Source of the DNA: Pseudomonas piscis
Lineage (GTDB): Bacteria > Pseudomonadota > Gammaproteobacteria > Pseudomonadales > Pseudomonadaceae
Length of the DNA stretch: 64,000 nucleotides
Assembly (NCBI RefSeq): GCF_009380155.1
Contig: NZ_WHUV01000007.1
Location: 62,001 to 126,000, forward strand
Direction: 5' to 3'
In this document: positions 1,951 to 58,176 of the stretch, piece after piece
How positions within the stretch are numbered: the stretch's first letter is position 1
How the letters are laid out: every line of letters starts with the position of its first letter
Translations under genes and position numbers: made by a program
Notes under the pieces: model-generated
Databases searched by the model: none
Told to the model about the DNA's origin: nothing
The model's input: only the letters and a program-made list of their open reading frames with translations

Positions 1951-1965
1951 AGCGGCCGGGCCGCG

Positions 1966-1987
1966 TGCCTGCTTGAGGGGGCAGGCA
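1966..1987. terminator. Hairpin between convergent genes
   Basis: A 7-bp perfect stem (TGCCTGC / GCAGGCA) with an 8-nt loop lies just after the channel gene stop and before the lhr stop. There is no long T tract, so intrinsic termination is plausible but not assured. Confidence 0.4.
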
Positions 1988-2015
1988 GTAGTGCTTGCGG
2001 GGCCGGCGGCTGCGG

Positions 2016-6305: not shown

Positions 6306-6511
6306 GCCTGACGTTATGCGGCCGCCCGGTGCAACTTGCAAGCGCCCGCCTGGCGGCTACCCGCGCCTTTTGTCCGATACGGTGCCGGCCACCGCCTGGC
6401 CCGGGAGCTTGGTGGCGGCCTGGCCTGCGCCAGTGGCTACGCTCGAGAGGTGGGGGACGCACTTTCTCAGTGACGCTTGCGCCACAAACCCGCAAAATGC
6501 AACGATTCCGG

Positions 6512-6544
6512 CAATTCCCGGCGGGCTTGGCTCCCCGGGAATTG
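6512..6544. promoter_or_regulatory. 10-bp inverted repeat in the 5' region of the SDR gene
   Basis: A perfect 10-bp inverted repeat (CAATTCCCGG / CCGGGAATTG) with a 13-nt loop ends 45 bp before the ATG at 6590. It lies in the 284-bp gap between divergent lhr and the SDR gene. It could be an operator or an mRNA leader hairpin; no T tract follows. Nothing else stands out in this gap. Confidence 0.4.
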
Positions 6545-6589
6545 ACCAATCCAAACCAACGTTCCGAACACACTGGGCCTGCTGACTCT

Positions 6590-7474
6590 ATGCGAATGCG
6601 CCTTATGTTACTGGGCGGCGGAAATGCCCTTGGGCAGGCGCTGATTCGCCTGGGTGCGGAGGAAGACATCAGCTTCCTCGCGCCCCGTCCGCCGCAAGAC
6701 GGTTGGGACGCCGCGAGCCTCACGCAATTGCTCGACGACACCCGTCCGGATGCCTTGATCAACCTGGCTTACTACTTCGACTGGTTCCAGGCGGAGACGG
6801 TGAGCGAGGCGCGCCTGGCTGGCCAGGAGCGGGCGGTCGAGCGACTGGCCGAACTCTGCCAGCACCACAACATCATCCTGGTGCAACCTTCGAGCTACCG
6901 GGTATTCGACGGCTCGCGGGCTACCGCCTACAGCGAGAAGGACGAGCCCGTTCCCCTGGGCCTGCATGGGCAGGCGTTGTGGCGGATCGAGCAAAGCGTG
7001 CGCGCCACTTGCCCGCAGCATGTGCTGCTGCGTTTCGGCTGGCTGCTCGATGACAGCGCCGAAGGCATTCTCGGGCGTTTCCTGGCCCGGGCCGAGTCGA
7101 CGCAGGAATTGCTCATGGCGGACGACCGCCGGGGGAACCCGACGCCGGTGGATGACGCCGCGCGGGTGATCATCTCGGTACTCAAGCAACTCGATTGTGC
7201 TGCGCCGTTGTGGGGCACCTATCACTATGCCGGCCAGGAAGCGACCACGCCCCTGGCCCTGGGCCAGGCGGTACTCGGCGAGGCGCGACAATTGCACCCG
7301 CTGGCCGTCGAGGCGCCCACCGCCCAGGCCCACGCGGCGTTCGCCGATGCCGCCGAAGAACCGCAGCATGCGGTCCTGGCCTGCAAGAAAATTCTTCACA
7401 CTTTCGGGATCAAGCCGCGCGCCTGGCGTGCCGCGCTCCCGGCTTTACTGGATAGGTTCTATCGCCATGGCTGA
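6590..7474 (+). CDS. SDR-family sugar-nucleotide-type reductase (RmlD-like)
   Basis: A 294-residue Rossmann-fold protein of the extended SDR class, resembling dTDP-4-dehydrorhamnose reductase. The N-terminal nucleotide-binding glycines are degenerate (LLGGGNALGQAL, against GxxGxxG), which weakens a firm claim of cofactor binding. There is no clear YxxxK: the region around PSSYRVFDG is where the family SSxxVFxG motif sits, followed by PLGLHGQALWRIE where YG.SK is expected. Hence a non-standard or non-catalytic member is possible. The ATG at 6590 is chosen because upstream sequence has no family resemblance; MRMRLM also offers 6596. It overlaps the next gene by 8 bp, so the two are surely co-transcribed. 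Gene order matches what I recall as PA4069-PA4068 in P. aeruginosa. Confidence 0.75.
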   Translation: MRMRLMLLGGGNALGQALIRLGAEEDISFLAPRPPQDGWDAASLTQLLDDTRPDALINLAYYFDWFQAETVSEARLAGQERAVERLAELCQHHNIILVQPSSYRVFDGSRATAYSEKDEPVPLGLHGQALWRIEQSVRATCPQHVLLRFGWLLDDSAEGILGRFLARAESTQELLMADDRRGNPTPVDDAARVIISVLKQLDCAAPLWGTYHYAGQEATTPLALGQAVLGEARQLHPLAVEAPTAQAHAAFADAAEEPQHAVLACKKILHTFGIKPRAWRAALPALLDRFYRHG

Positions 7475-8396
7475 CGGCTTTGTATTGATCACCGGTGGCG
7501 CTGGTTTCATCGGTTCGAATCTGACCGATGCGCTGCTCGCCAAGGGATATTCGGTGCGTGTGCTGGACGACTTGTCCACAGGCAAGCCAGCCAACCTGCC
7601 GCTGGATGATCCGCGTGTCGAGCTGATCGAGGGGGATGTTGCCGACGCCGCCCTGGTGAGTCGGGTCATGCAGGGTTGCAGCGCCGTGGTCCACCTGGCG
7701 GCGGTGGCGTCGGTACAGGCCTCGGTGGACGATCCGGTACAGACCCACCAGAGCAATTTCATCGGCACCCTGAACGTTTGCGAAGCCATGCGCCAGCAGG
7801 GCGTGAAACGGGTGTTGTTCGCTTCCAGCGCGGCGGTCTACGGCAATAATGGCGAAGGCCGGTCCATCGACGAAGATACGCCCAAGGCACCGCTGACCCC
7901 CTATGCCAGCGACAAGTTGGCCAGCGAACACTACCTGGATTTCTATCGGCGCCAACACGGCCTGGAGCCGGCGATCTTCCGCTTCTTCAATATCTTCGGT
8001 CCACGCCAGGATCCTTCGTCGCCGTACTCCGGGGTGATCAGCATATTCTGCGAGCGGGCCCAGAAGGGGCTGCCGATCACGGTATTCGGCGATGGCGAAC
8101 AGACTCGGGACTTCGTCTATATCGGTGATCTGGTGGAGGTGCTGGTACAAGCCATCGAGGCTCCTCGACTGGAAGAGGGCGCAGTCAACGTGGGCTTGAA
8201 CCAGGCGACCACGCTCAAGCAACTGCTGGCAGCCCTGGCCGAGGTTGTGGGTCAATTGCCTCCCATCAGCCATGGTCCCGCCCGTTCCGGCGACATCCGT
8301 CATTCGCGGGCCAGCAACCAGCGTCTGTTGCAGCGCTTCAGCTTCCCCGAGCCCACGCCGATGAGTGTCGGCCTGGCCCGTCTGTTGGGCCGCTGA
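7467..8396 (+). CDS. NAD-dependent epimerase/dehydratase (GalE-like)
   Basis: A 309-residue extended SDR. The N-terminus has the NAD-binding motif TGGAGFIGSNL (GxxGxxG), then a DDLSTG segment typical of UDP-glucose 4-epimerases. The catalytic triad region reads SSAAVYG with the YASDK tyrosine/lysine pair (in TPYASDKLASE), and FRFFNIFGPRQ follows. Substrate is not determinable; UDP-hexose or UDP-hexuronate epimerisation is likeliest, feeding envelope polysaccharide. It starts inside the 3' end of the upstream SDR gene (8-bp overlap), so translation is coupled. A strong bidirectional terminator follows. Confidence 0.85.
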   Translation: MADGFVLITGGAGFIGSNLTDALLAKGYSVRVLDDLSTGKPANLPLDDPRVELIEGDVADAALVSRVMQGCSAVVHLAAVASVQASVDDPVQTHQSNFIGTLNVCEAMRQQGVKRVLFASSAAVYGNNGEGRSIDEDTPKAPLTPYASDKLASEHYLDFYRRQHGLEPAIFRFFNIFGPRQDPSSPYSGVISIFCERAQKGLPITVFGDGEQTRDFVYIGDLVEVLVQAIEAPRLEEGAVNVGLNQATTLKQLLAALAEVVGQLPPISHGPARSGDIRHSRASNQRLLQRFSFPEPTPMSVGLARLLGR

Positions 8397-8409
8397 CGTT
8401 TTCCGGACA

Positions 8410-8440
8410 CGAAAAAGGCGCCTCGAGGGCGCCTTTTTCG
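8410..8440. terminator. Bidirectional rho-independent terminator
   Basis: A 13-bp perfect stem (CGAAAAAGGCGCC / GGCGCCTTTTTCG) with a 5-nt loop lies between the convergent epimerase and oprG genes. T runs occur on both strands, so it can serve both. Confidence 0.9.
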
Positions 8441-8452
8441 TAGGGCTTGGGC

Positions 8453-9151
8453 TTAGAACTTGTAGCCCAGGCCAACCATGTAGACCATCGGGTCAACGTC
8501 GACGTTGACCTTGGCGCGGGTGCCCTGGGCCACCGCGTTGTTGTCCACGTAGGCACGGGTGTCGATGTCGATGTAGCGGACCTGGGCGTTGATCATGATG
8601 TTGTCGGTCAGCATGTAGTCGGCACCGACCTGCCAGGCCAGGCCCCAGGAGTTCTTGGCGCGGAAGTTGTCGAAACCGGCCTCGCTGGCGCGGCTGCCAA
8701 CGTGCTCGTCGTAGATCCAGGTGTAGTTGATACCGGCACCGACGTAGGGCTGGAACGCCGATTTGTTATCCAGCGGGTAGTACACCACGCTCAGGGTTGG
8801 CGGCAGGTGCTTGAGGGTACCGAGCTTGCCGTTGGCCGGGGCCAGGGCGGTGTTCTTGATTTTCACGTCGTGTTCGAACGGAGTGGCGGCCAGCAGTTCG
8901 ATACCGATGTTGTTGGTCACCATGTACGCGAAGTTCAGACCCAGCTGGGTATCGCTGCTCATGGTCGCCTTGCCGCCCAGGTTGGCGCCGGCCAGGGGGC
9001 CGCGGTCGACCTTGACGTCGGAACTGTTGGCTTTCGGGTTGACGGTGATCGCACCGGCACGAACGATGATGTCACCGGCGTCGTGGGCGTGGGCGATCGG
9101 GGCGGCGAGTGCGAGCGCAACCAGGGAGGCGCTAAGCAGGGACTTATGCAT
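8453..9151 (-). CDS. oprG: OmpW-family outer membrane protein OprG
   Basis: A 232-residue outer-membrane eight-stranded beta-barrel of the OmpW/OprG family. A 22-residue signal peptide ends in AHA, the mature part starts HDAGDIIVRAG as in OmpW proteins, and it ends in the barrel-type C-terminal phenylalanine (GLGYKF). Internal features include the YYPLD and PYVGAGINYTW segments characteristic of the family. OprG is thought to form a hydrophobic lateral-opening channel for small amphipathic molecules. The start is ATG 9151 with GGAG just upstream; the in-frame extension to 9214 has no signal-peptide logic. It lies next to the zinc-type operon and the epimerase as in P. aeruginosa, where oprG is under ANR control; an ANR-like box is present here. 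Confidence 0.9.
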   Translation of the reverse strand: MHKSLLSASLVALALAAPIAHAHDAGDIIVRAGAITVNPKANSSDVKVDRGPLAGANLGGKATMSSDTQLGLNFAYMVTNNIGIELLAATPFEHDVKIKNTALAPANGKLGTLKHLPPTLSVVYYPLDNKSAFQPYVGAGINYTWIYDEHVGSRASEAGFDNFRAKNSWGLAWQVGADYMLTDNIMINAQVRYIDIDTRAYVDNNAVAQGTRAKVNVDVDPMVYMVGLGYKF

Positions 9152-9215
9152 GGGAGCTCCAAAGGACGATTCAAATTGGCTATGTCCAATGGTAAGGATC
9201 GTCAAGTTGACCACC

Positions 9216-9229
9216 TTGACTCAGCTCAA
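9216..9229 (-). promoter_or_regulatory. ANR/FNR-like box upstream of oprG
   Basis: TTGACTCAGCTCAA is a perfect TTGA-N6-TCAA dyad matching 8 of 10 fixed positions of the FNR/ANR consensus TTGAT-N4-ATCAA. On the minus strand a TACCAT -10 candidate lies at 9194-9189, which places the box centre near -41 from the predicted start point, the usual class II activator position. The transcript would carry a leader of about 30 nt to the oprG ATG. Confidence 0.6.
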
Positions 9230-9326
9230 TGAAATCGCGAACCCTCGCCCCGGCGCTGAACTATTCTTTTGCCCCGCACTCTTTTGCCATCGCTTTCCGG
9301 GTCGCCAGGTTCCCTGTGATCGACGC

Positions 9327-9860
9327 TCACTCTTGCAGCTCGTAGACGTAGATCTTCTGCGCCGCCATCTGGTAACCGGCGTCCGCCAGCTCGCTGGTTG
9401 AAGGCTTGACCTGCATGTTGCCCTCGACCCAGTAGGGTTGGTAGAGCTCGTCGAGCTTTACCCCGACTTCGCTGGTGACATGGACGATCTGGTTCGACGG
9501 TGGCGGTGGTACGTGGATGCACGCGCCGAAATACGGCACCAGCAGGAAGTCTGTGGTGCGGCCTTCCTCGCTCACTTCCAGGGGCACGATGTAGCCGGGC
9601 AGGCGCACCGACTGGCCATCGAGGCTCTGGACCACCGGGGCATCGGGCAGCTCCTGCTTGGCCGCCGGCGCCGACTCCGCCGACAGCGCATCGCTCATCT
9701 GCGACAGGTCGTGCAGGGGCTTCATGTTCGGCACCTCGGCTGGTGCTCCGGCCGGGATCATTTCCAACCAGGTCAGGTCCCGCGCAGCTGCGGCCCAGCA
9801 GACCGGGCTGGCCAGCAGCGACAGGACGAACAGGGAGTGAAGCAGGCGTTGGATCTTCAT
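9327..9860 (-). CDS. DUF3299 periplasmic/exported protein, zinc-type operon
   Basis: A 177-residue protein with a clear N-terminal signal peptide (SLLASPVCWA). The C-terminal half carries the DUF3299 signature: LPGYIVPLE, then FLLVPYFGACIHVPPPPSN, and a closing KIYVYELQ. The conserved Cys and His in GACIHVPPP may bind metal, but this is not shown. It is the last gene of a leftward four-gene set (DUF2796, ABC ATPase, FtsX-like permease, DUF3299) with a 10-bp gap to the permease. I recall the same set as PA4063-PA4066 in P. aeruginosa, induced by zinc starvation. Start ATG 9860 is chosen for the signal peptide. Molecular function is unknown. Confidence 0.8.
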   Translation of the reverse strand: MKIQRLLHSLFVLSLLASPVCWAAAARDLTWLEMIPAGAPAEVPNMKPLHDLSQMSDALSAESAPAAKQELPDAPVVQSLDGQSVRLPGYIVPLEVSEEGRTTDFLLVPYFGACIHVPPPPSNQIVHVTSEVGVKLDELYQPYWVEGNMQVKPSTSELADAGYQMAAQKIYVYELQE

Positions 9861-9870
9861 GGATCGATGC

Positions 9871-11136
9871 TCACAAACGGATCGACAGGCCATCGGCCAG
9901 GGATTGCCGGTAGGCGCGCCAGGCCGGCACGCTGCCCATCAGCAGCGCGGCGACCAGGATACCCCCGAGCAGCGTCCACTCATACGGGCTGGGCCAGGAC
10001 AACGGCAGGTACAGGCCGTAGTTCGACTGCACGTAGCCCTGGGCCAGGGCGATGCCCAGGTAGAGCAGCGCCAGCCCGGCCATGACCCCCGCCAGGGCCA
10101 GGGCGAAGGCCTCCAGTACCAGCAGGGTCGCGATATGCCAGGGGCGGGCACCCACCGAACGCAGGATGGCCATTTCCCGACGGCGCTCGTTGAGGCTGGT
10201 GAGGATCGCCGTGAGCATGCCGATCAGGCCGGTGAGGACCACGAATAGCGAGACCACGAACAAGGCCTTCTCGGCAGTGCCCATCAGGCTCCAGAGCTCC
10301 TGCAGGGCTACCCCGGGGAGAATCGCCAGCATCGGTTCGCCGCGGAACTCATTGATCTCGCGCTGCAGGGCGAAGGTCGAGATCTTGCTGTTCAGGCCCA
10401 GCATGAAAGCGGTGATGGCCTGGGGCGTCAGGTCCATGTTGCGCGCCTGGTCGGCGCTGATCCGACCCGCGCCACGGGCCGGCACGCCGTTGTGCCAGTC
10501 GATGTGGATCGCCTCCATGCCACCCAGGCTGATGTGCAGGGTACGGTCCACCGGAGTGCCGGTGCGCTTGAGGATACCGACCACGGTGAAAGGCTTGTCA
10601 TCGTGCTTGACCAGGCTGATGGCGGCCACGCCGTGGGCCAGCACCAGCTTGTCGCCCAGCTGGTAGTGCAGGGCATCGGCGACTTCCGCTCCCAGCACCA
10701 CCTCGAACGGGTCGCTGGCGAAGGCCCGGCCCACGGCCAGTTGCAGGTTCTGCTGGTGGCCGTACTGGTAGTGCTGGAAGTAGGCCTCGGTGGTGCCCAT
10801 CACCCGGTAGCCGCGATGGGAGTCGCCCAGGGAAATCGGGATCGCCCATTTCACTTTGGGATTGCTGGCGAAGTGCTCGAAGCTGTCCCAGCGGATGTTG
10901 TTGGTGGCGTTGCCGATCCGGAACACCGAATACAAAAGCAGGTTCACCGAGCCGGAGCGGGCGCCGACGATCAGGTCGGTGCCGCTGATGGTGCTGGCGA
11001 AGCTGGCGCGGGCTTCGGTGCGCACCCGTTCCACCGCCAATAGCAGGCAGACCGAAAGAGCGATGGCGAACACGGTGAGGAACGCGGTGAAGCGACGGTT
11101 AGCCAGGCTGGCCATGGCTAGGCGGAACAGATACAT
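9871..11136 (-). CDS. ABC transporter permease, FtsX/MacB type
   Basis: A 421-residue inner-membrane protein with the MacB/LolC layout: one N-terminal membrane helix (FLTVFAIALSVCLLLAVE), a periplasmic domain of about 230 residues, and three C-terminal helices with the FtsX-type stretch LTSLNERRREMAILRSVGARP, whose cytoplasmic part couples to the ATPase. Such systems work as mechanotransmitters or extract envelope substrates rather than importing them. The start at 11136 (MYLFRLAMASL) lies 1 bp after the stop of the ATPase gene. With the His-rich DUF2796 partner and a Zur-like box upstream, a role in zinc limitation is inferred, not demonstrated. Confidence 0.85.
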   Translation of the reverse strand: MYLFRLAMASLANRRFTAFLTVFAIALSVCLLLAVERVRTEARASFASTISGTDLIVGARSGSVNLLLYSVFRIGNATNNIRWDSFEHFASNPKVKWAIPISLGDSHRGYRVMGTTEAYFQHYQYGHQQNLQLAVGRAFASDPFEVVLGAEVADALHYQLGDKLVLAHGVAAISLVKHDDKPFTVVGILKRTGTPVDRTLHISLGGMEAIHIDWHNGVPARGAGRISADQARNMDLTPQAITAFMLGLNSKISTFALQREINEFRGEPMLAILPGVALQELWSLMGTAEKALFVVSLFVVLTGLIGMLTAILTSLNERRREMAILRSVGARPWHIATLLVLEAFALALAGVMAGLALLYLGIALAQGYVQSNYGLYLPLSWPSPYEWTLLGGILVAALLMGSVPAWRAYRQSLADGLSIRL

Positions 11137-11137
11137 C

Positions 11138-11848
11138 TCAGACCTCGGCAGGCTTGGCGGCGCGATTGAGTTCGGCCAGCGACAGGTGACGATCGAACAG
11201 CGGCGCCAGGCTCTGGTCATGGCTGACGAACAGCAGGCTGGCACCGGCTTCGCGGCATTCGCTGAACAGCAACTGGATGAAGGCCTCGCGGGCGTCCTGG
11301 TCCAGCGCCGAAGTGGGTTCGTCGGCGATCACCAGCTCCGGTTGGCCGATCAATGCCCTGGCCGCCGCGACCCGCTGTTGCTGGCCGATGGACAACGAGT
11401 CGGCGCGGCGGCCGAGCAGGTCGGGGTCCTTCAGGCCCAGGTGGGCCAGCAGGGTCGCGGCAGCCTGGTCGACGCTACCGTGGCGCTGCACGGCGCGGCT
11501 GGCTCGCTGCTTGGAGAAATGACAGGGCAGCTCGACGTTCTCGCGTACCGAGAGGAAGGGCAGCAGGTTGAACTGCTGGAAGATGTAGCCGGTGTGGTCG
11601 ACGCGAAAGCGATCGCGGGCACCGGCGGACAACTCGCCCAGCTCCTGGCCCAGCAGGCGGATACTGCCCTGGGTGGGTTTCTGCACCCCGCCCAGCAAAC
11701 CCAGCAGGGTGGTCTTGCCGCTGCCGCTGGGACCCTTGAGGAACAGGGTTTCACCGGTTTGCAAGGCGAAGGCGGGGATGTCCAGCAACTGGGGCTGGCC
11801 GGGCCAGTTGAAGCCCAGGTCGGACAGTTCGATGAGTGCTTGGGTCAT
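11138..11848 (-). CDS. ABC transporter ATP-binding protein (LolD/MacB type)
   Basis: A 236-residue ATPase. Walker A is GPSGSGKTT, the Q-loop is in FQQFNLLPFLSVRENV, the signature is LSIGQQQRVA (a variant of LSGGQ), Walker B is LVIADEPTSALD and the switch histidine is in VSHD. The FNLLPFLSVxEN phrase is typical of the LolD/MacB class that pairs with FtsX-like permeases. Start ATG 11848 gives MTQALIELSDL; longer in-frame extension has no homology character. It is second in the zinc-type operon, 72 bp after the DUF2796 gene. Confidence 0.9.
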   Translation of the reverse strand: MTQALIELSDLGFNWPGQPQLLDIPAFALQTGETLFLKGPSGSGKTTLLGLLGGVQKPTQGSIRLLGQELGELSAGARDRFRVDHTGYIFQQFNLLPFLSVRENVELPCHFSKQRASRAVQRHGSVDQAAATLLAHLGLKDPDLLGRRADSLSIGQQQRVAAARALIGQPELVIADEPTSALDQDAREAFIQLLFSECREAGASLLFVSHDQSLAPLFDRHLSLAELNRAAKPAEV

Positions 11849-46339: not shown

Positions 46340-46798
46340 TCAGTCTTCGCTTATGGGCAGGATGTAGTTCTTGAACTCCGTGTCCTCGCGAAATCCCATG
46401 GATTCATAGGTCTTGCGCGCCACTTCGTTGTCGCTGCTGGTGGAGACCCGCATGCGCACGGCATTGGTTTCCTTGGCCATCTTCTTGGCGGTGCGCATCA
46501 GGTTGTCGGCCACCAGTTGGCGGCGAGCATCCTCGGCAACGTAGATGTCGTTGAGGATCCACACACGCTTGAGGGACAGGGACGAGAAGCTCGGATAGAG
46601 CTGGCAGAAGCCCAGCAACTTGCTGCTGTCGTCATCGGCCAGGGCCAGGTAGATCACCGACTCCTTGCGCCGCAGGCGCTTTTCCAGGAACGCCCGGGAA
46701 GAGTCCGGGTAAGGCAGGGCGCCATAGAACTCGCGGTACTTGACGAATAGCGGGGTCAACAGATCCAGGTGCTCGAGGGTTGCTTGAGTAATCCGCAT
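46340..46798 (-). CDS. GNAT-family N-acetyltransferase
   Basis: A 152-residue GNAT acetyltransferase. The acetyl-CoA-binding region is IYVAEDARRQLVADNLMRTAKKMAKETN, in which the Q/RxxGxG/A loop is altered (RRQLVA), and VRMRVSTSSDNEVARKTYESMGFREDTEF closes the fold. Substrate unknown. Start ATG 46798 gives MRITQATLEHLDLL, the usual GNAT opening; the longer frame to 46891 runs into unrelated sequence. I recall a probable acetyltransferase (PA4026) at this spot next to eutC in P. aeruginosa, so the association is conserved, but a role in ethanolamine use is not shown. Confidence 0.8.
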   Translation of the reverse strand: MRITQATLEHLDLLTPLFVKYREFYGALPYPDSSRAFLEKRLRRKESVIYLALADDDSSKLLGFCQLYPSFSSLSLKRVWILNDIYVAEDARRQLVADNLMRTAKKMAKETNAVRMRVSTSSDNEVARKTYESMGFREDTEFKNYILPISED

Positions 46799-46904
46799 GA
46801 TGGCTCTCAACTTCAAGTGGATGTGACGGCACAGGTTGGAGAACTCGGGCAGCCGCGTTGCGATGCTGCCCAAAGCGGTTAAAAAGCGCAATCGTCTTGC
46901 AAAA

Positions 46905-47729
46905 TCACACTTGGGGCGGGCCCAGGAGGAAGTTGCCCTTCATGTCCGCGGGCGAGTCGCTGTCCAGGGTCTGGACCTGCGCCTCGTCCTTGAGGTTCAC
47001 CCCCGACAATTGCCGGCGGCAGGCTTCGCGCATCAGGTACAGCAGCCGATGGGCGGCCATGCCGTAGCTCAGGCCCTCCAGGCGTACGTTGGAGATGCAG
47101 TTGCGGTAGGCATCGGTGAGCCCGACCTTCGGCTGGTAGGTGAAATATAGCCCCAGACTGTCGGGAGAGCTGAGCCCCGGGCGTTCGCCGATCAGGATGA
47201 CCGTCATCTTGGCGCCCAGCAGCTGGCCGATTTCATCGGCCACCGCCACCCGGCCCTGTTCCACCAGGATCACCGGCGACAGCGACCAGCCTTCGGCGGC
47301 GGTCTGTTCTTCCATGCGCGCCAGGAACGGCAGGGTATGGCGATGCACGGCCAGCGCCGACAAGCCATCGGCCACCACGACCGCGAGGTCGACCCCGCCG
47401 GGGTGGGCCTGGGCATATTCGCGCAGGGCCTGGGCCGACTCGTCGCTGAGCCGGCGCCCCAGGTCAGGGCGTTGCAGGTAGCTGTGGCGATCGGTGGCGG
47501 CGCTGTGCAGCAGCAGGCTGTCGCGGCCCCGCTCGGCCAGCTGGGCACTGAGTCCGGCATGGTCGAACGGCAGGTGTACGGCATCCCGGGCCTGGGCATG
47601 GGCGAACTGGAAATCCAGCTGGGCGCCAGTGGGCAGGCTGGTGCCGGTGCGGCCCAGGGCGATGCGCGCCGGAGTCAGGCGGCGCAGTTCCAGCCAGGGG
47701 TTTTGCGAGTCGCTCGGGTGTTTTTGCAT
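46905..47729 (-). CDS. eutC: Ethanolamine ammonia-lyase small subunit
   Basis: A 274-residue EutC that contributes to binding adenosylcobalamin in the (EutB-EutC)6 lyase. Motifs: [49 protein letters not shown], and [36 protein letters not shown] with the corrin-contacting segment, then NCISNVR. ATG 47729 is 11 bp after the eutB stop. It is the last gene of the leftward eutH-eutA-fusion-eutB-eutC series. Confidence 0.95.
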
Positions 47730-47740
47730 GAGCCTGTTCC

Positions 47741-49135
47741 TTATCCCAACTGGGCCAGTGCCTGGCGGAAGGCCGGAGGCAGGTTGTTGCCGAAATGCAC
47801 CTTGCCGTCGGCCTGGGTGAAGATCCCGGTCCGCGCCAGCCACTGCTCGAATTCGGGCGCGGGCTTCAGGCCCAGGGTCTGGCGGGCGTAGAGGGCGTCG
47901 TGGAAGGATGTGGTCTGGTAGTTGAGCATGATGTCGTCGGAGCCCGGGATGCCCATGATGAAGTTGATCCCGGCCACCCCCAGCAGGGTCAGCAGGTTGT
48001 CCATGTCGTCCTGGTCGGCCTCGGCGTGGTTGGTGTAGCAGATGTCGCAACCCATGGGCACGCCCAGCAACTTGCCGCAGAAGTGATCCTCCAGGCCGGC
48101 GCGGATGATCTGCTTGCCGTTGTACAGGTACTCCGGCCCGATGAAACCGACCACGGTGTTCACCAGGAACGGCTTGAAGTGCCGCGCCACGGCGTAGGCG
48201 CGGGTTTCGCAGGTCTGCTGGTCGACGCCGAAGTGGGCGTTGGCCGACAGCGCGCTGCCCTGGCCGGTCTCGAAGTACATCAGGTTCTGCCCCAGGGTGC
48301 CGCGATTCAGGCTCAGCCCCGCTTCGTAGCCTTCCTTGAGGATGTTGAGGTTGATGCCGAAGCTGGCGTTGGCCGCTTCGGTACCGGCGATCGACTGGAA
48401 TACCAGGTCCAGGGGCACGCCACGGTTGATCGCCTCGATGGAGGTGGTGACGTGGGTCAGCACGCAGGCCTGGGTGGGAATCTCGTAGCGCTGGATGATG
48501 GCGTCGAGCATCTCCAGCATGGCGCAGATCGAGGCGATGCTGTCGGTGGCCGGGTTGATGCCGATCATGGCGTCGCCGTTGCCGTACAGCAGGCCGTCGA
48601 GAATGCTCGCGGCGATGCCGGCCGGCTCGTCGGTGGGGTGGTTGGGCTGCAGGCGGGTGGACAGGCGCCCGCGCAGGCCCACGGTGCCGCGGAACTTGGT
48701 CACCACACGGATTTTCTGCGCTACCAGCACCAGGTCTTGCAGGCGCATGATCTTCGATACCGCCGCGGCCATTTCCGGGGTCAGGCCCGGGGCCAGGTCG
48801 CGCAGGCTCTGCTCGTCGGCAGCGTCACTGAGCAGCCAGTCGCGGAAGCCGCCGACGGTCAGGTGGCTGACCGGGGCGAAGGCCGCCTTGTCGTGGCTGT
48901 CGATGATCAGCCGGGTGACTTCGTCGGACTCGTAGGGGATCAGCACCTCTTCGAGGAAGTGCTTGAGGGGGATGTCCGCCAAGGTCATCTGGGCGGCCAC
49001 CCGCTCGCCGTCGTTGAGGGCGGCGACCCCGGCCAGGAAATCCCCGGAACGCGCGGGGCTGGCCTTGGCCATGACTTCCTTGAGGCTGTCGAAGCGATAG
49101 GTCTGAGAACCTACGCTGTGGGAAAATTGGGCCAT
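47741..49135 (-). CDS. eutB: Ethanolamine ammonia-lyase large subunit
   Basis: A 464-residue TIM-barrel subunit carrying the active site that converts ethanolamine to acetaldehyde and ammonia using adenosylcobalamin. Residues matching E. coli Arg160, Gln162, Asn193, Glu287 and Asp362 are all present: Arg161/Gln163 in [10 protein letters not shown], Asn194 in IGINPATDS, Glu289 in YFETGQGS, and Asp364 in [16 protein letters not shown]. It is thus a canonical enzyme, in contrast to the fused paralogue upstream. It follows the fusion gene by 51 bp and precedes eutC by 11 bp. Confidence 0.97.
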
Positions 49136-49186: not shown

Positions 49187-51382
49187 TCAGGATGCCACCT
49201 TCTTCAGCAGGTTTTCCAGACGGTTGCCGGCAGCTCGGTGCTGCAGGATGGCGAAGGCCTTCTCCGCCACCAGGCTGCCGCCTTCCAGCGGCGGCAGGCC
49301 GCCGCTGTAGATGTTCGAGATCACGGTGTATTCGTAGCCGATATCCGGGTTGCCGCTGAACTGCGCCGCCGCGCGCCGGGCCTGTTCGTCCGGCAAGCGA
49401 TAGCCCAGGTAGGCGGACATGCTGCGCGAGGCCAGGGCATCGCCGCCGGGACGTTCGCCGATCAAGACAATGATCAGCTGCGGTTGCAGCGCCTCGCCCA
49501 CCGATTCCGCCAGCTTGACCCGGCCATAGGGCGCGAGGATCGGCTGGCCGACGCGCAGTTCGCGGCTGCGCAGGCCATCCATCAGCACCGGCAGCAGTTC
49601 GGGAATGTTGTGGTGGATGGCCTCGGCGCTGAGACCGTCGGAAATCACGATCTGCACGTCGTTGTATTCCGGTTGCAGCTGGCGCAGTACCTCTTCAGTC
49701 AGGCGCGCGCCCAGTTCCGGGTCTTGCAGGTGGGCCAGCTTGTCCGGGGCGGCGGTGCGCAGTTCGCGCAGGGGAATCTCGCCGAACTCGGCCGGACGCA
49801 GGTCGACGTAGATCGCCTCCCGGGCCACCGCCAGGTTGGCCCGCACGATGCGCGAGACGTTGTTGGCCGGGCGCGGCCCGGCGTTGTCGAAACCGTAGGT
49901 GGCCGGGGTGGATTCCAGCAGGCGCTGGAAGTCGATGTCCGACTCGCAGAAGATCCGCGGGTTGCCCCAGTTCGGCCCGCGCTCGACGTTGCCATGGGCA
50001 TCTTCCTGGAAGATCCCCTTGCCCAGGGCCCAGCGCAGGTACTCCGGAGCCGGCGCCAGGTCGTGGACTTCGCGCAGGGTCTGGTTGTCGTGGGCGCTGG
50101 TGTCGAAGTAGGCCAGCATGCGGTCGGTGCTCAGGTACACGTCCATGAAGAAGTTGGCGCCGGCCGCAGTCAGCAGCTCGGTGGCCATCTGCTGGCCTTC
50201 CAGGGTCACCTGGGAGTGCAAGGTGTAGCAGGGCGCCATGCCCATGGGCAGGCCCAGCAGCTTGCCCATGAACTGGTCCTGCAGACAGGCGTAGGTCATC
50301 TCGAAGTTGTCGAGGTGGGTTTCCGGGCCGATGAAACCGGTGACGTTGTTGACCATGTACGGGCGGTAGCGCCGGGCCAGGCCGTAGCACAGCGCCTCGC
50401 AGGTGGTCATGTCGATTCCTTCGTGCTTGCCGTAGGTCAGCTCGCTGCCCTGGCCGGTCTCGAAGTACATGAAGTTTTCCGCCACGTCTCTTAGTGGGCC
50501 CCGCTCGGCCATGGCCTGCCAGGCCTGGTCGAGCAGTTGCACGGTGACGTCGAACTCGTCGGTCAGGGTGCGCTCGGTGCCCGCCAGGCTCTGGAACATG
50601 ATTTCCACCGGCGCGCCCTGGTCCAGGCAGGCCAGTTGGGTCTTGATGTGCGACAGCACGCAGATCTGCGTAGGCGCTCCGGTTTCCCGGCGCAATTTGT
50701 CCAGGTGGCGCAGGGTGGCGCTGATGTTGTCCACGGTGTCGATGGCCGGGTTGAGGCCGATCAGCGCGTCGCCCGAGCCCATGCTCAGCCCGGTGTACAC
50801 CAGCAGGGTGATGCCGCTGAGGTTGTCGGTGGGGTGGTTGGGCTGCAAGCGTGACGACAGGGTGCCAGGCAGGCCCACCAGGGTCCGGGCCTTGGCGGCT
50901 GCACCGCTCTTGAGCTTCTTGGACAGCAGGATCAGCTCGTGCACGTCCAGAAGCTTGGCCAGGGCGGCGACCATCACCCCGGTCAGGCCCGTGCCGATGC
51001 GGCGGATTTCCGTGCCGTGGCTGCGCAGCAGGCGATCCTTGAGGGCGCCCAGGGTCAGCCCGGATATCTCGGCGAACACTTGGTGGTCGATGTCGTAGTT
51101 GACCTGCATCACGCTGTCGATACGGCCATGGCGATCGGTGAGAGGGTGCTCGAAGTAGTGGCCCAGGGTCAGCTCCGAGAGCACCTTGCGGGCCGCTTCG
51201 CGAGTGATTTCGTCGGCCGCCGCGAGGCCGGCCACGCGGTCCCCGGCCTTGCTGATGTCGGCGGCGCCGAGCACCGCCTTGAGGTTGGCGAAGTGGATCT
51301 CGCGATCCAGGACCCGGGTGCCGTAGCTGCGCTCGGTGGGTATCTCGGGCAGGCGGATGTGCTGGAGTTCGGTGAGTGGCAT
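49187..51382 (-). CDS. Fused EutB-EutC-like ammonia-lyase paralogue
   Basis: A 731-residue single chain: residues 1-460 align with EutB and about 515-731 with EutC (SDGLSAEAIHHNIPELLPVL, GRVKLAESVGEALQPQLIIVLIGERPGGD, then VISNIYSGGLPPLEGG). In the barrel Arg178, Gln180 ([10 protein letters not shown]), Asn211 (LIGLNPAID) and Glu308 ([10 protein letters not shown]) are kept. The residue equal to E. coli Asp362 is Ala383 (LPMGMAPCYT against PMGCDICYT), and the following NHAEADQ is LHSQVTLEG. It therefore looks catalytically competent with an altered substrate pocket. ATG 51382 follows AAGGAG; ATG 51406 is less likely. It is co-transcribed with eutA (28-bp gap) and eutB. Confidence 0.9.
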   Translation of the reverse strand: MPLTELQHIRLPEIPTERSYGTRVLDREIHFANLKAVLGAADISKAGDRVAGLAAADEITREAARKVLSELTLGHYFEHPLTDRHGRIDSVMQVNYDIDHQVFAEISGLTLGALKDRLLRSHGTEIRRIGTGLTGVMVAALAKLLDVHELILLSKKLKSGAAAKARTLVGLPGTLSSRLQPNHPTDNLSGITLLVYTGLSMGSGDALIGLNPAIDTVDNISATLRHLDKLRRETGAPTQICVLSHIKTQLACLDQGAPVEIMFQSLAGTERTLTDEFDVTVQLLDQAWQAMAERGPLRDVAENFMYFETGQGSELTYGKHEGIDMTTCEALCYGLARRYRPYMVNNVTGFIGPETHLDNFEMTYACLQDQFMGKLLGLPMGMAPCYTLHSQVTLEGQQMATELLTAAGANFFMDVYLSTDRMLAYFDTSAHDNQTLREVHDLAPAPEYLRWALGKGIFQEDAHGNVERGPNWGNPRIFCESDIDFQRLLESTPATYGFDNAGPRPANNVSRIVRANLAVAREAIYVDLRPAEFGEIPLRELRTAAPDKLAHLQDPELGARLTEEVLRQLQPEYNDVQIVISDGLSAEAIHHNIPELLPVLMDGLRSRELRVGQPILAPYGRVKLAESVGEALQPQLIIVLIGERPGGDALASRSMSAYLGYRLPDEQARRAAAQFSGNPDIGYEYTVISNIYSGGLPPLEGGSLVAEKAFAILQHRAAGNRLENLLKKVAS

Positions 51383-51410
51383 GGCAGGACTCTCCTTGGT
51401 TCGCATCGCC

Positions 51411-52847
51411 TCAGTGCACGCCGTAGAAGGCGACGGGCACGATGTGCTGATGGGGTTTCCCCAGGTTGATGAAGTGCGCCGAGCGCTCGCGTACCTCGTC
51501 GATGACGATCAGGTTGCAGGCACTGCGCCCCCAGTCCGTGGCGTAGTTGCCCAGGACCTTGCCGATGTTGCTTTCCAGCAGCAGCACCAGTGGCCACTGC
51601 GGCTCCGGGGCAGCGGCTTGCAGGGCCTGGGCCAGGCGCGTGCCCAACTGGCGGACCTGCTCCAGCCGGGGAACCTGGCCGTCATCGAGCAATTGCAGGC
51701 AGGCGCCGTCGCGGCTGCCCAGGGCCAGGCCCAGGGCGTCGCGCAGTTGGCGCTCGCTGGCATCGATGGGCAGGCGCGCGACGATGGGCAGGTCCTTGAG
51801 TGGCAGCACCTGTGGTCGTGGCAAGAACAGGGTGCTGCCGGAAATCTCGGTGTTGTGCAGGGTCAGGCCATAGACCGTGGCTCGCCCGCGGTTTTCCGGC
51901 ACCAGTCGGGTGGCGTCCCCCACCAGTCGGGGCTGGCGAGCGATGGCCAGGGCCAGGTCGATGCCCAAATCGCCATAGAAGGTGGTGCCGGGCAGCGTTT
52001 CGCCTTGCAGGTGGCGATAGAGCAGCTCGCCGACGCCGCCGGAAAAGGTCAACGCGGCGCTTGCATGGCCTTGGGGCAAGAGCAGCGGCAATTGCTCGAC
52101 CACCCGGCCCAGCGGACTGGCGAAGAACGCCCGGTCGCCCTCGGCGATCGCCAGCAGCGCCGCGACGTACCAGGCGAGCACAGCGTCCCGCTCCAGGGGC
52201 ATCAGTTCCTGGCCGGGCTCCCTGGCGATGCCCAGGTGCTGGAGCAGGGCCCGGCCGAACGCCGAGAGCTCCCTGAGCCGATAGCTACCGGGGTGGAATT
52301 GCAGGTGCCGGGCGCCGATGAAGTGGCAGCCAGTGGCCAGGACATTGCCATCCAGGCCCCAGGCGGCGTTGGTGGTACCGCCGCCAATGTCCAGGTTGAG
52401 CAGTGGCTGCTGGCGATGGAAACGGCTCAGGGCCGAACAGCTGCCCATGAAGGCCAACCAGGATTCCAGGCCGCCGTCGTCGGCCCGGGTCACCAGGGCG
52501 TTGCCGAGCAGTTGCCCCACCTGTTGCGCCAGGGCCTGGGCATTGTGCCGCCGGGCGGCCAGGCCGGTGATGATCACTCCGCCGGAAAACAGCTGCTGCG
52601 GACGGACTCCGGCCTGTTCCAGCCAGCCTTCGATCAAGCCGCCGATGGCCCCGGTGTCGATGATGTCGTCCTTGAACGGCGTGAACACCGGGTCGCCGCG
52701 AAACAGCACCCGGGGTTCATTGAGGGCCATGCGTCCGGTGACGCAATGGCTGCTGAGGCTGGCCTGGGCGATCAGCGCGCTGCTGGTGGTGGAGCCGAAG
52801 TCCAGTCCCAGCAGCAATACCGGTGCGCCGCCCGTGATGGCTTGCAT
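51411..52847 (-). CDS. eutA: EutA, ethanolamine ammonia-lyase reactivase
   Basis: A 478-residue ASKHA-fold ATPase that exchanges damaged cobalamin out of the lyase. N-terminal LGLDFGSTTSSALIA is the phosphate-1 motif, LNLDIGGGTTNAAWG the phosphate-2 motif, and SGGVGELLYRHL lies in the adenosine region. Length is close to E. coli EutA (467). It sits between eutH and the fused lyase, so it probably serves both the fusion and the split EutBC. ATG 52847 is used; the gap to eutH is 25 bp. Confidence 0.9.
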   Translation of the reverse strand: MQAITGGAPVLLLGLDFGSTTSSALIAQASLSSHCVTGRMALNEPRVLFRGDPVFTPFKDDIIDTGAIGGLIEGWLEQAGVRPQQLFSGGVIITGLAARRHNAQALAQQVGQLLGNALVTRADDGGLESWLAFMGSCSALSRFHRQQPLLNLDIGGGTTNAAWGLDGNVLATGCHFIGARHLQFHPGSYRLRELSAFGRALLQHLGIAREPGQELMPLERDAVLAWYVAALLAIAEGDRAFFASPLGRVVEQLPLLLPQGHASAALTFSGGVGELLYRHLQGETLPGTTFYGDLGIDLALAIARQPRLVGDATRLVPENRGRATVYGLTLHNTEISGSTLFLPRPQVLPLKDLPIVARLPIDASERQLRDALGLALGSRDGACLQLLDDGQVPRLEQVRQLGTRLAQALQAAAPEPQWPLVLLLESNIGKVLGNYATDWGRSACNLIVIDEVRERSAHFINLGKPHQHIVPVAFYGVH

Positions 52848-52872: not shown

Positions 52873-54153
52873 TCAGGCTGTGGCCTTTTGCCCAGGCGCT
52901 GCTGGTGCTTGCTGCACGCTATCGCCCAGGTATTCGCCCTCGGCGATGATCCCGGCCGCGCGGTCCTGGGCTTCCAGTTGCAGGGCCTTGGGCACCGACA
53001 GCCAGTAGGCCAGGCCCACCGCGACGAAACCAGCGCTGAGCTTGCCGATCAGTACCGGCAGGATGATGGTCGGCTGGAAGTTGGCGGTGAAGGACAGGTG
53101 GTCGCCCAGCAGGAAGGCCGCGCAGACACCGAAGGCGATGTTGACCACCTTGTCCTTTGGCGGCATGTAGCGCACCAGGCGGAACATCGCCAGGATGTTG
53201 GCGATGGTGGCCAGCATGCCGGCGCTGCCCACGGCGCTCAGGCCGACCTTGCCGCCCAGGCTCTCCAGGGGTTTGCCCAGGTACTTGCGCAGCAGGTAGA
53301 CCATGGGGAAGGCCCCGGCCAGCATGATGCCGATGTAGCCGGCGGTTTCCAGCGCGCGGGTCTGGTCCTCGGCGTCGGCGATGATCGGGTGGAAGCCCCA
53401 GCTGCCGAAAACCGTGGTGAACACGCCGGTGAAGTGCTGGACGATCGACGCCACCAGCACCAGCTTGATCACTGCGTCCAGGGTCCGGCCGAAGATGATG
53501 AAGCCCTTGATCATCAGGTCCGGCAGGAAGCGCAGCCCCAGGGCCAGGGCCACGACGAAGATCAGGATCGGCAGCAGGTTGGCGAACAGGCCGCCCACGG
53601 CCAGGGCCAGTTGGTAGCTGGCCTCGGAGTTGGTGCTGACCAGCTCGCGGACCATCGGGTTGCTGAAGGCCAGGATCAGGCTGGCCACCATCACCCCGAC
53701 CGGGATGGTCAGGATGCCGGACATGATCCCCAGGGCCATGTACTTGTGGTCGCGCTTGTCGAGCATCGCCAGGCCCATGGGGATCGAGAAGACGATGGTG
53801 GCGCCACCCATGAAGCCGGTGATCAATGCCATCACCAGCGCTTCCTTGCTGGCCGCCAGGGCCGAGGCCAGGTGGTAGCCGCCCATGTCCGAGGCGATGA
53901 TCATGGTCGCCGCCAGGGCCGGGTCGGCACCCAGGGATTCGAAGAAGGGTCCGAAGACCGATTCGATCAATACGGTGAGATAGGGGATGGAAGCCATGAT
54001 CCCCGCCGCCGGCACGAAGATGTAGCCCGTGGCGTGGATGCCTTCCATGAACTCCTTGCCCAGCCCGCGATCACTGTCATAGATGGCAGCGAGGGCGCCG
54101 AGCACGGCACAGAGCATGATGAGGTAGAGCACGTAGTTGCCGATCTGGTCCAT
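52873..54153 (-). CDS. eutH: EutH ethanolamine permease
   Basis: A 426-residue inner-membrane protein with ten to eleven hydrophobic segments. Family phrases: N-terminal IGNYVLYLIMLCAVLGALAAI, GLGKEFMEGIHATGYIFVPAAGIMASIPYL, ASDMGGYHLASALA, and the late FLLGDHLSFTANFQP. EutH aids ethanolamine entry at low concentration or pH. It opens the leftward eutH-eutA-fusion-eutB-eutC unit, with AAGGGAG as ribosome binding site and an AACAATAA element just before it. P. aeruginosa, as I recall, has a different permease at this locus, so the transporter has been exchanged. Confidence 0.92.
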   Translation of the reverse strand: MDQIGNYVLYLIMLCAVLGALAAIYDSDRGLGKEFMEGIHATGYIFVPAAGIMASIPYLTVLIESVFGPFFESLGADPALAATMIIASDMGGYHLASALAASKEALVMALITGFMGGATIVFSIPMGLAMLDKRDHKYMALGIMSGILTIPVGVMVASLILAFSNPMVRELVSTNSEASYQLALAVGGLFANLLPILIFVVALALGLRFLPDLMIKGFIIFGRTLDAVIKLVLVASIVQHFTGVFTTVFGSWGFHPIIADAEDQTRALETAGYIGIMLAGAFPMVYLLRKYLGKPLESLGGKVGLSAVGSAGMLATIANILAMFRLVRYMPPKDKVVNIAFGVCAAFLLGDHLSFTANFQPTIILPVLIGKLSAGFVAVGLAYWLSVPKALQLEAQDRAAGIIAEGEYLGDSVQQAPAAPGQKATA

Positions 54154-54349: not shown

Positions 54350-55870
<1,521 letters not shown>

Positions 55871-55933: not shown

Positions 55934-55948
55934 GCAAAGCCCGGGCCA
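55934..55948 (-). promoter_or_regulatory. Sigma-54 promoter of exaC
   Basis: On the minus strand TGGCCCGGGCTTTGC matches the -24/-12 consensus TGGCACG-N4-TTGC with a single change (A to C) and the exact GG-N10-GC spacing; it is flanked by C and T as preferred. The start point would lie about 50 nt before the exaC ATG. The divergent regulator is a sigma-54 activator. Confidence 0.75.
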
Positions 55949-56253: not shown

Positions 56254-58176
56254 ATGCACAGCAGCAATCATCTGACCCGCCATGCCCAGCAAGTGCTGAC
56301 GGTCGCCCGGGGCAAGGCCCATCTGCAGGGACCTGGCAGCGATCCATCCATCGCCCGTTCCTGGCTGCGCTGCCTGGAGGACTATCACCTCGACCCGGCA
56401 CTGGCCATGGCGCCGACGGTGCTCGAGCACGGCCGCTTGCTGGAGAGCCGCGAACGCCTGCGCGATGTGCTGCAGATCGCCGGTACGGAAATGGCCAACC
56501 TGCACCAGCAGTTGTCCGGTGCCGGTCACGCGGTGCTGCTGACCGATGCCCGCGGGGTCATCCTCAACTGCATCACCGCTCCCAGCGAGCGCAAGATCTT
56601 CGAGCATGCCGGCCTGTGGCTAGGCGCCGACTGGAGCGAGGCCCGCGAGGGCACCAACGGCATCGGTACCTGCCTGGTGGAACGCCAGTCGTTGACCATC
56701 CATCAGGACGAGCATTTCCGTGGCCGGCACACCGGCCTGACCTGCTCCGCCAGCCCGGTGTTCGATCCCCATGGCGAGTTGCTGGCGGTACTGGACGTGT
56801 CTTCGGCCCGCCAGGATGTTTCCCGCCAGAGCCAGTTCCACACCATGGCCATGGTCAATCTCTCGGCGAAGATGATCGAGAGCTGTTACTTCCTGCGTTA
56901 CTTCGAAAACCAGTGGTTGCTGCGCTTTCACTTGCAGGCCGAGTCGGTGGGGCTGTTCAGCGAGGGGCTGCTGGCGTTCGACGGCGAAGGGCGGATCTGC
57001 GCGGTGAACCAGAGTGCCCTGAACCTGCTGGGGCATATTCGCGGCGGCCTGCTGGGCAAGCCCGTGGATAGTTTTTTCGATTGTTCCCTGGATGAGCTGT
57101 TCGCTCGTGCCAGCCTCAATGCCAGCGCCAGCTGGCCATTGCGAACCCGGGACGGGCGGCGTTTGTTCGCCTTGTTGCGCGGTGCCCCGCAGCCCGTCAC
57201 GCCACCTTTGTTGCGCGCGCCGCTGGAAGTGCTCCAGCCCCGCGCCCCGGGGATCTGCCTGGGGGACGCCGGCCTGCAGAACGATTTTCGCCGGGCTTCG
57301 CGGGTGTTCGAGCGTGATGTGCCGCTGCTGATCAATGGCGAGACCGGCTCCGGCAAGGAGGCGTTCGCCAAGGCCGTGCACCAGGGCAGCGTCCGGGCGG
57401 ACAAGGCCTTTGTCGCCCTCAACTGCGCGGCGATCCCGGAAAGCCTGATCGAGAGCGAACTGTTCGGCTACCGCGGCGGCAGCTTCACCGGGGCGCGCAA
57501 GGAAGGCATGCGCGGCAAGCTGCAGCAGGCCGACGGCGGCACCTTGTTCCTGGATGAGATCGGCGACATGCCGCTGGCCTTGCAGACCCGCTTGCTGCGG
57601 GTCCTGGAGGATCGGCTGGTGGTGCCCATCGGCGGCGAGCCGCAACCGGTCAATGTGCGCATCATCAGTGCCACTCACCGCGACCTGCAGGAGCGGGTGC
57701 GCGATGGCAGCTTCCGTGAAGACTTGTACTACCGGCTCAATGGCCTGGAGATCGCCCTGCCGGCTTTGCGTGAGCGCAGTGACAAATCCCAGTTGCTGGA
57801 CTTCCTCCTGGCCGAAGAGGCGGGCACGCAGCCGGTGGGCCTGGACGAGCCTGCACGCCAGGCGCTGTTGGGCTATTCCTGGCCGGGCAACGTACGACAG
57901 CTGCGCAATGTACTGCGGACCCTGGCGGCCTTGTGCGAAGACGGCCGGATCGGTGTCGACGACTTGCCGGCGATGATTCGCCAGGGCAGCCGCCTTACTC
58001 CGGCGAGCGAAGCGCTCGAGGCGCAGCCGGAGCGCCCCCTGGACGACGCCGAGCGCCAGGCGCTGCTGGCGGCACTGGAGCAGCAGCGCTGGCACATGAC
58101 CCATACCGCCGAGCAACTGGGGGTCAGTCGCAACACCTTGTATCGCAAGCTGCGCAAGCACGGCATTTCGCGCTGA
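56254..58176 (+). CDS. eatR: Sigma-54-dependent activator of ethanolamine genes (AcoR/EatR type)
   Basis: A 640-residue enhancer-binding protein. An N-terminal GAF-like sensor (about 80-220, with GTNGIGTCLVERQSLTIHQDEHF) and a PAS-like segment (235-300) precede a AAA+ domain: Walker A GETGSGKE at 362-369, sigma-54 contact loop GSFTGA (the usual GAFTGA with Ser), Walker B GGTLFLDEIGDMPL, and arginine-finger region REDLYYRLNGLEIALPALRER. A Fis-type HTH (TAEQLGVSRNTLYRKLRKH) ends the protein. It is divergent from exaC, whose promoter is sigma-54 type, as for EatR (PA4021) of P. aeruginosa. The AACAATAA element suggests translational catabolite repression. Confidence 0.9.
   Translation: MHSSNHLTRHAQQVLTVARGKAHLQGPGSDPSIARSWLRCLEDYHLDPALAMAPTVLEHGRLLESRERLRDVLQIAGTEMANLHQQLSGAGHAVLLTDARGVILNCITAPSERKIFEHAGLWLGADWSEAREGTNGIGTCLVERQSLTIHQDEHFRGRHTGLTCSASPVFDPHGELLAVLDVSSARQDVSRQSQFHTMAMVNLSAKMIESCYFLRYFENQWLLRFHLQAESVGLFSEGLLAFDGEGRICAVNQSALNLLGHIRGGLLGKPVDSFFDCSLDELFARASLNASASWPLRTRDGRRLFALLRGAPQPVTPPLLRAPLEVLQPRAPGICLGDAGLQNDFRRASRVFERDVPLLINGETGSGKEAFAKAVHQGSVRADKAFVALNCAAIPESLIESELFGYRGGSFTGARKEGMRGKLQQADGGTLFLDEIGDMPLALQTRLLRVLEDRLVVPIGGEPQPVNVRIISATHRDLQERVRDGSFREDLYYRLNGLEIALPALRERSDKSQLLDFLLAEEAGTQPVGLDEPARQALLGYSWPGNVRQLRNVLRTLAALCEDGRIGVDDLPAMIRQGSRLTPASEALEAQPERPLDDAERQALLAALEQQRWHMTHTAEQLGVSRNTLYRKLRKHGISR

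Follow-up and report, generated by a model that had tools for sequence, protein, structure and literature searches.

Why would an operon-like cluster with an intact two-gene ethanolamine ammonia-lyase (EAL) also hold a single-chain relative of this enzyme, and what would that relative act on? The question is raised by a stretch of 64,000 nucleotides of Pseudomonas piscis DNA (the window), in which a sequence-only reading had noted a fused EutB-EutC-like lyase beside split eutB and eutC. Both observations were borne out by profile matches, and the features of the region are as follows.

The fusion gene and its neighbours

49187..51382 (-), fused EutB-EutC-like lyase gene, an intact frame of 731 aa from ATG 51382
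49187-51406 (-), longer frame of the fusion, 739 aa from the first ATG, 51406
49997..51295 (-), EutB-like barrel domain of the fusion (PF06751, residues 38-470 in the 739-aa numbering, 460 bits)
49217..49930 (-), EutC-like domain of the fusion (PF05985, residues 493-730 in the 739-aa numbering, 161 bits)
50234..50236 (-), codon of Ala391 (Ala383 counted from ATG 51382) at the position of E. coli Asp362
51411..52847 (-), eutA, reactivating factor family (PF06277, 213.7 bits, cut-off 27)
47741..49135 (-), split eutB of the Asp362 type (profile matches and alignment)
about 46905..47732 (-), split eutC (profile matches; start codon approximate)
52873..54153 (-), eutH, ethanolamine transport family (688.9 bits, cut-off 575)
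54350..55870 (-), exaC-type acetaldehyde dehydrogenase (957.2 bits, cut-off 900)
55934..55948 (-), sigma-54-like site upstream of exaC, one mismatch
56254..58176 (+), sigma-54 activator, divergent from exaC (Pfam domains)

The minus-strand genes stood in an operon-like order of exaC-type dehydrogenase, eutH, eutA, fusion, eutB, eutC and a GNAT acetyltransferase. The acetyltransferase gene (46340-46891) followed eutC in the same order in seven related Pseudomonas loci. Because an AGGAG motif lies 9 nt 5' of ATG 51382, the 731-aa protein is the likelier fusion product. The eutA product scored below the NCBIfam EutA cut-offs. Sigma-54-like sites with one mismatch numbered 5 in the window, compared to 8.65 expected by chance. 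The divergent activator is presumably EatR-like, judging by its position. An Rfam search of window positions 40-60 kb gave no match above the gathering score. The name EatR for such a sigma-54 activator is taken from a passage of PMC5821096.

Active-site residues and the Ala362 family

In the alignment to E. coli EutB, the fusion retained Arg160, Gln162, Asn193 and Glu287, as had been read from the sequence, and also F329. The equivalent residues R186, Q188, N219 and E316 were invariant in 26 aligned fusions. E. coli Asp362, which we take to be the contact to the substrate amino group in EAL structures, corresponded to Ala383 (Ala391 in the 739-aa frame), again in agreement with the earlier count. 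The alignment had no gap near this alanine. The further claim that the next seven residues also differ did not hold, as four of the seven were identical (CCYTNHA at E. coli 363-369, PCYTLHS in the fusion).

An AlphaFold2 model based on 26 fusion sequences had a mean pLDDT of 79.4 and a pTM of 0.74. Since several barrel stretches fell below a pLDDT of 50 and block 391-400 averaged 56, the model was used for the fold only, and pocket geometry is left unclaimed. In Foldseek, the barrel model matched E. coli EutB (3abo_A) with Z 38.7 and an rmsd of 2.5 over 403 aligned residues, followed by Listeria EutB (2qez, Z 37.0); EAL small-subunit chains and diol dehydratases were among the lower-ranked PDB matches. 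The fusion scored below the NCBIfam cut-offs for both EutB (443.3 vs 554) and EutC (137.4 vs 230). It shares with classical EutBC (E. coli 3abo, Listeria 2qez) the large-subunit fold, both domains, the R160/Q162/N193/E287 set and a nearby EutA, whereas its subunits are joined, D362 is replaced by alanine and many other columns are changed. By predicted fold and domains the fusion is a member of the ethanolamine ammonia-lyase family, and by the Asp362 position and the NCBIfam cut-offs it is placed outside the classical type.

Relatives were collected from one genome-contig scan. Only the best 80 of 377 relatives were used (the best-80 set), so the locus set is biased to the fusion. This set held 41 loci with full or partial fusions, 60-95% identical to that of the window, from Pseudomonadota, Verrucomicrobiota, Planctomycetota and Thermodesulfobacteriota; many of the sources are MAGs, and taxon names are given as in the records. 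Within the genus of the window, a full-length fusion of at least 74% identity was found in 6 of 298 genomes.

An alignment of 121 rows was drawn from the best 80 of 377 relatives. Position 362 was Ala in 47 and Ser in one of the 48 fusion rows of this set, Ala in 18 split EutB rows (from Bacillota, Thermodesulfobacteriota and one Actinomycetota record) and Asp in the remaining 54 rows; these counts and those of the columns include duplicates, such as L003 and L001, both genes of the window itself. Nineteen further columns parted the Ala from the Asp sets with less than 8% overlap. The separating columns included 325N, 327T/S, 334T, 363P and 403A/S, as well as 376, 379, 406 and 412. Because the columns change in a coordinated way and in both fused and split architectures, a local loss is argued against; by this comparison, the Ala362 change is a coordinated one in two gene architectures, rather than the decay of one gene. 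The separating columns may partly reflect plain descent rather than function.

Near-identical Pseudomonas rows, duplicates, fragments, the EutC half of L061 and the L059 fragment were excluded from the trees, and 93 (quick tree) and 80 (masked tree) of the 121 aligned rows were used. In the quick tree, the Asp rows formed one side of a branch. With the 20 separating columns masked, the best topology needed two changes at position 362, and a constraint holding all Ala rows together was not rejected (p-AU 0.214). In both trees a single branch set the fused rows apart from all others, with support of 100/100 in the masked tree. The Ala362 state may have a single origin.

Gene neighbourhoods of the Ala362 forms

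Of the 38 loci in the best-80 set whose sequence was long enough, 32 had an EutA that ended at most 400 bp upstream of the fusion; L058, in which the fusion frame is broken, was a 33rd locus with EutA just upstream. EutA was not found in L051, L054, L060 and L062, nor near the L061 fusion. In L048, a cobalamin adenosyltransferase gene lay ~2.6 kb downstream of the fusion. Because EutA usually stands just upstream, gene order suggests that the fusion is active as an adenosylcobalamin (AdoCbl) enzyme.

Of 36 fusion genomes in the best-80 set, 25 had another EutB-like match at 39-42% identity, which argues that the fusion is not a mere replacement of ethanolamine ammonia-lyase. Residue 362 of these second copies was read where the copy falls within the fetched locus. 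Among the 41 fusion loci of the best-80 set, the window-type layout, with the fusion beside split eutBC, was found in 8, and a neighbouring split EutB was absent in 32, some of them on short contigs. L038 had a neighbouring split EutB of another layout. This locus (658-9427) held EutA and the fusion, then a second EutA with an Asp-type EutBC, followed by microcompartment-like genes as judged by eye.

In three closely related Pseudomonas genomes (G133, G166 and P. cuatrocienegasensis, G303), tmm-tdm lay upstream of eutA, the fusion and an aldehyde dehydrogenase gene. The P. cuatrocienegasensis fusion is 74% identical to that of the window. The order in G133 was Tmm (NF058570, 827.9 bits, cut-off 675), Tdm (TMAO demethylase; NF053776, 1151 bits, cut-off 1100), a chemoreceptor-like gene, an Amt-family transporter, EutA, the fusion, aldehyde dehydrogenase and the contig end. 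In G166 and G303, genes for HODM, DmmA, an MgsC-like protein and a TIGR03105 ligase were found beyond the dehydrogenase, within 25 and 34 kb. We take the glutamate-synthase-like gene of these islands to be MgsC, and the ligase is presumably of the GmaS type. Judged by gene content, the island in G166 and G303 is a predicted trimethylamine-to-methylamine pathway. A fourth genome, Granulosicoccaceae L068 (G322), carried DmmA, a reductase and HODM alpha on one side of fusion-EutA, and on the other a set of N-methylglutamate-type genes (sarcosine-oxidase-like, PurU and GmaS-type); its Tdm match is a domain match to the sarcosine-oxidase-like protein.

Tmm, Tdm, HODM or MgsC markers were found in the flanks of 3 of the 41 fusion loci, and methylated-amine markers were not found in the available flanks of 38 (best 80 of 377 relatives). 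At the genome level in the best-80 set, DmmA was over its cut-off in 15 of the 32 fusion genomes searched (the search covered 32 of the 41 fusion loci), Tdm exceeded 1000 bits in 14 of 36, with 6 over the cut-off, and the GmaS-type ligase was over its cut-off in 23 of 38, or 22 of 36 without duplicates. The genome pairs G133 with G319 and G225 with G299 look identical. Within the genus, DmmA was over its cut-off in 2 of 6 fusion carriers vs 63 of 298 genomes, and Tmm in 2 of 6 vs 58 of 298; therefore, co-presence within the genus is no evidence.

Gene position, by contrast, is informative. The EutB search was positive in 57 of the 58 Tmm-positive Pseudomonas genomes. The fusions of G133 and G166 lay ~7 kb from tmm (positions compared by hand). 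In the 58 genomes, tmm had no other EutB on its contig at less than 100 kb. EutB and tmm shared a contig in 20 of these genomes; in the others, the lack of linkage holds to the extent that the assemblies reveal it. The nearest non-fusion EutB was about 155 kb from tmm, in G042, and the other EutB copies in these genomes were called classical by score.

A fusion-dmm linkage in Stutzerimonas kirkiae (L029) was dropped, as the fusion lies on contig C38 and DmmA on C44. Transporter type was also dropped as a substrate guide, as none was specific enough. Near the fusions, Methylotenera had a YdcS-like ABC system (643 bits, cut-off 725), Verrucomicrobia and Betaproteobacteria had APC permeases, and L046 and L068 had a DASS-family gene. 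The Methylotenera loci L044 (2547-6517, 10206-11654), L033 and L031 combined the YdcS-like transporter with an aminobutyraldehyde-type aldehyde dehydrogenase, as if a cationic amine were imported.

The split Ala362 forms were found in another setting. In Desulfosporosinus, the genes after split Ala362 eutB-eutC-eutA encode, in order, a regulator of the PocR type, a corrinoid protein, a kinase of the APH family, a pyrrolysine-free methyltransferase of the MTTB family, another corrinoid protein and a methyltransferase of the methyl-THF type. MTTB-system markers were present in the flanks of 9 of 18 split-Ala loci vs 0 of 21 Asp-only loci, both counted in the best-80 set; eight of the nine are Desulfosporosinus, the marker queries were taken from one of these (L080), and L077 was counted by the THF-type methyltransferase alone. 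By genome, the MttB family was present in 9 of 15 Ala-type vs 0 of 14 Asp-type genomes of the best-80 set, five of the nine being Desulfosporosinus. In L083, Ala362 eutBC was preceded, at a distance of ~2.9 kb, by a trimethylamine (TMA) methyltransferase gene with one in-frame TAG (pyrrolysine type, 101-1564). Between the two stood regulator genes, of which one has an ANTAR domain.

L081 (Alkaliphilus serpentinus) held an Asp362-type and an Ala362-type EutB before a single EutC (7983-9356, 9369-10739, 10755-11636), and the two large subunits may share this small subunit. In L088 and L094 (Bacillus), Ala362 eutBC was followed ~6 kb further by an Asp362 eutB and then eutC.

Proposed function and alternatives

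Sequence, conservation, co-varying residues and gene order suggest a substrate, product and chemistry for the fusion. It is probably a functional AdoCbl lyase with an amine pocket reshaped to accept an N-methylated ethanolamine. Choline is the most likely substrate, and N,N-dimethyl- and N-methylethanolamine are the next candidates. The loss of the carboxylate for the ammonium and the gain of small residues would suit N-methyl groups. Within the searched set, the Ala362 form appears tied to both aerobic TMA/DMA islands and anaerobic methyltransferase clusters, whereas the Asp362 form does not. This suggests, as the shared element of both settings, a two-carbon alcohol that bears a methylated amine. 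Choline would fit best beside the TMA-specific genes (tmm-tdm; pyrrolysine MttB), and N,N-dimethylethanolamine would fit the choline-demethylase neighbourhood.

In the proposed mechanism, the 5'-deoxyadenosyl radical would abstract hydrogen from the carbinol carbon of the substrate, and a methylated amine (TMA, DMA or MMA) would be released in place of ammonia, as predicted from gene order only. Acetaldehyde would be handed to the adjacent aldehyde dehydrogenase, and EutA would exchange damaged cobalamin. In the island-bearing species, the amine would be consumed by Tmm, Tdm, Dmm and the N-methylglutamate pathway; in the window strain, the C2 unit alone would perhaps be used. Because the window genome gave no DmmA match and no Tdm, GmaS-type or Tmm match over the cut-off, the case for this strain rests on orthology. 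As counterpoints, genes within one island may serve separate substrates, and the window operon itself has eutH and split eutBC.

The sequence-only reading had proposed an active AdoCbl lyase for another amino alcohol. An N-substituted substrate gains support from the retained catalytic residues, the upstream EutA and the fixed Ala362, and further from the methylated-amine breakdown genes around the fusion in four genomes. Its 2-aminopropanol-like example is disfavoured, since the title of 5ysr (EAL with AdoCbl and 2-amino-1-propanol) indicates that the classical enzyme already binds 2-amino-1-propanol.

The strongest rival, which we consider unlikely, is a lyase for another N-substituted or bulky, non-N-methylated amino alcohol, such as diethanolamine, yielding acetaldehyde and ethanolamine for the neighbouring EutBC. 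It would suit the window, where the fusion adjoins split eutBC with eutA, eutH and exaC in common and the genome lacks methylated-amine genes over the cut-off, and also the recurrence of this layout in 8 of the 41 fusion loci from the best-80 set. However, it would leave unexplained the tmm-tdm-dmm islands, the N-methylglutamate-type genes and the MttB-type neighbours of the split Ala362 forms. That the fusion is a second EAL of the ordinary kind, differing in its kinetics, is improbable: fold and domains are identical in kind and the gene shares one operon with eutBC in the window, but Ala362 is fixed with many co-varying columns, and 25 of 36 fusion genomes have the other EutB-like match at 39-42% identity (best-80 set). 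A catalytically dead, regulatory or structural EutBC partner, which the earlier reading had allowed as a regulatory subunit, is highly improbable, for although one substrate contact is lost and eutBC adjoins the fusion in those eight loci, the catalytic set is invariant in the 26 aligned fusions, EutA lies upstream in most loci (32 of 38) and 32 of 41 have no neighbouring split EutB in the available sequence (both in the best-80 set).

The preferred N-methylated substrate has a more specific version, held tentatively. The fusion may be an oxygen-compatible, B12-dependent choline trimethylamine-lyase, unrelated to CutC, which together with Tmm, Tdm, Dmm and the N-methylglutamate pathway would allow aerobic choline breakdown via TMA; the split relatives would act likewise in anaerobes. 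CutC is an anaerobic enzyme. The overall reaction would be the same if choline is the substrate, whereas the fusion holds EutB and EutC domains only, with no glycyl radical enzyme domain among its Pfam matches up to E 0.001. CutC is described as a glycyl radical enzyme in a passage of PMC6620236. The choline demethylation system of Eubacterium limosum is named MthKBCA in portions of PMC12155760, and its gene kinds (kinase-family, MttB-family, corrinoid protein, THF-type methyltransferase) also occur in the Desulfosporosinus Ala362 neighbourhoods, likened here by gene kind and not by orthology. The terms 'eut' and 'ethanolamine ammonia' are absent from the main text of PMC12155760.

Fused EutBC proteins of Pelobacter carbinolicus (Pcar_0491, Pcar_0467) appear in sections of PMC3543383 (2012), which also raise the idea of separate lyases for ethanolamine and choline; the single-chain EutB-EutC architecture is shared with the window fusion. 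The Desulfuromonas-type fused proteins L125-L127 were 31-36% identical to the fusion, with Asp362 and a signal-peptide-like N-terminus (by eye). From their resemblance to that description, they may be relatives of Pcar_0491/Pcar_0467. By these features, the window fusion differs from the Pelobacter type in having neither Asp362 nor the N-terminal signal-like segment. Because Asp362 and the signal-like start are kept, L125-L127 are regarded as a family apart. L125 (2052-4340), L126 (2593-4911) and L127 (2482-4878), all on the minus strand, lay beside solute-binding-protein or transporter-like genes (by eye), and they possibly encode an exported ethanolamine lyase. Among the titles and abstract openings listed in searches of an open-access library, none dealt with choline or methylated ethanolamines as substrates of an EutBC-type enzyme; the nearest published idea is the suggestion in those sections of PMC3543383.

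If the fusion is such a choline trimethylamine-lyase, its reaction would be a second enzymatic way to break the choline C-N bond and part of an unrecognised aerobic route of complete breakdown. TMA would then be formed from choline in bacteria without cutC, including soil and sea aerobes, and surveys relying on the cutC marker would miss such producers. Furthermore, the Pelobacter suggestion of distinct ethanolamine and choline enzymes, as worded in the sections of PMC3543383 cited above, would become testable, and Ala362 with its co-changing columns would provide a residue set to re-annotate proteins now called EutB.
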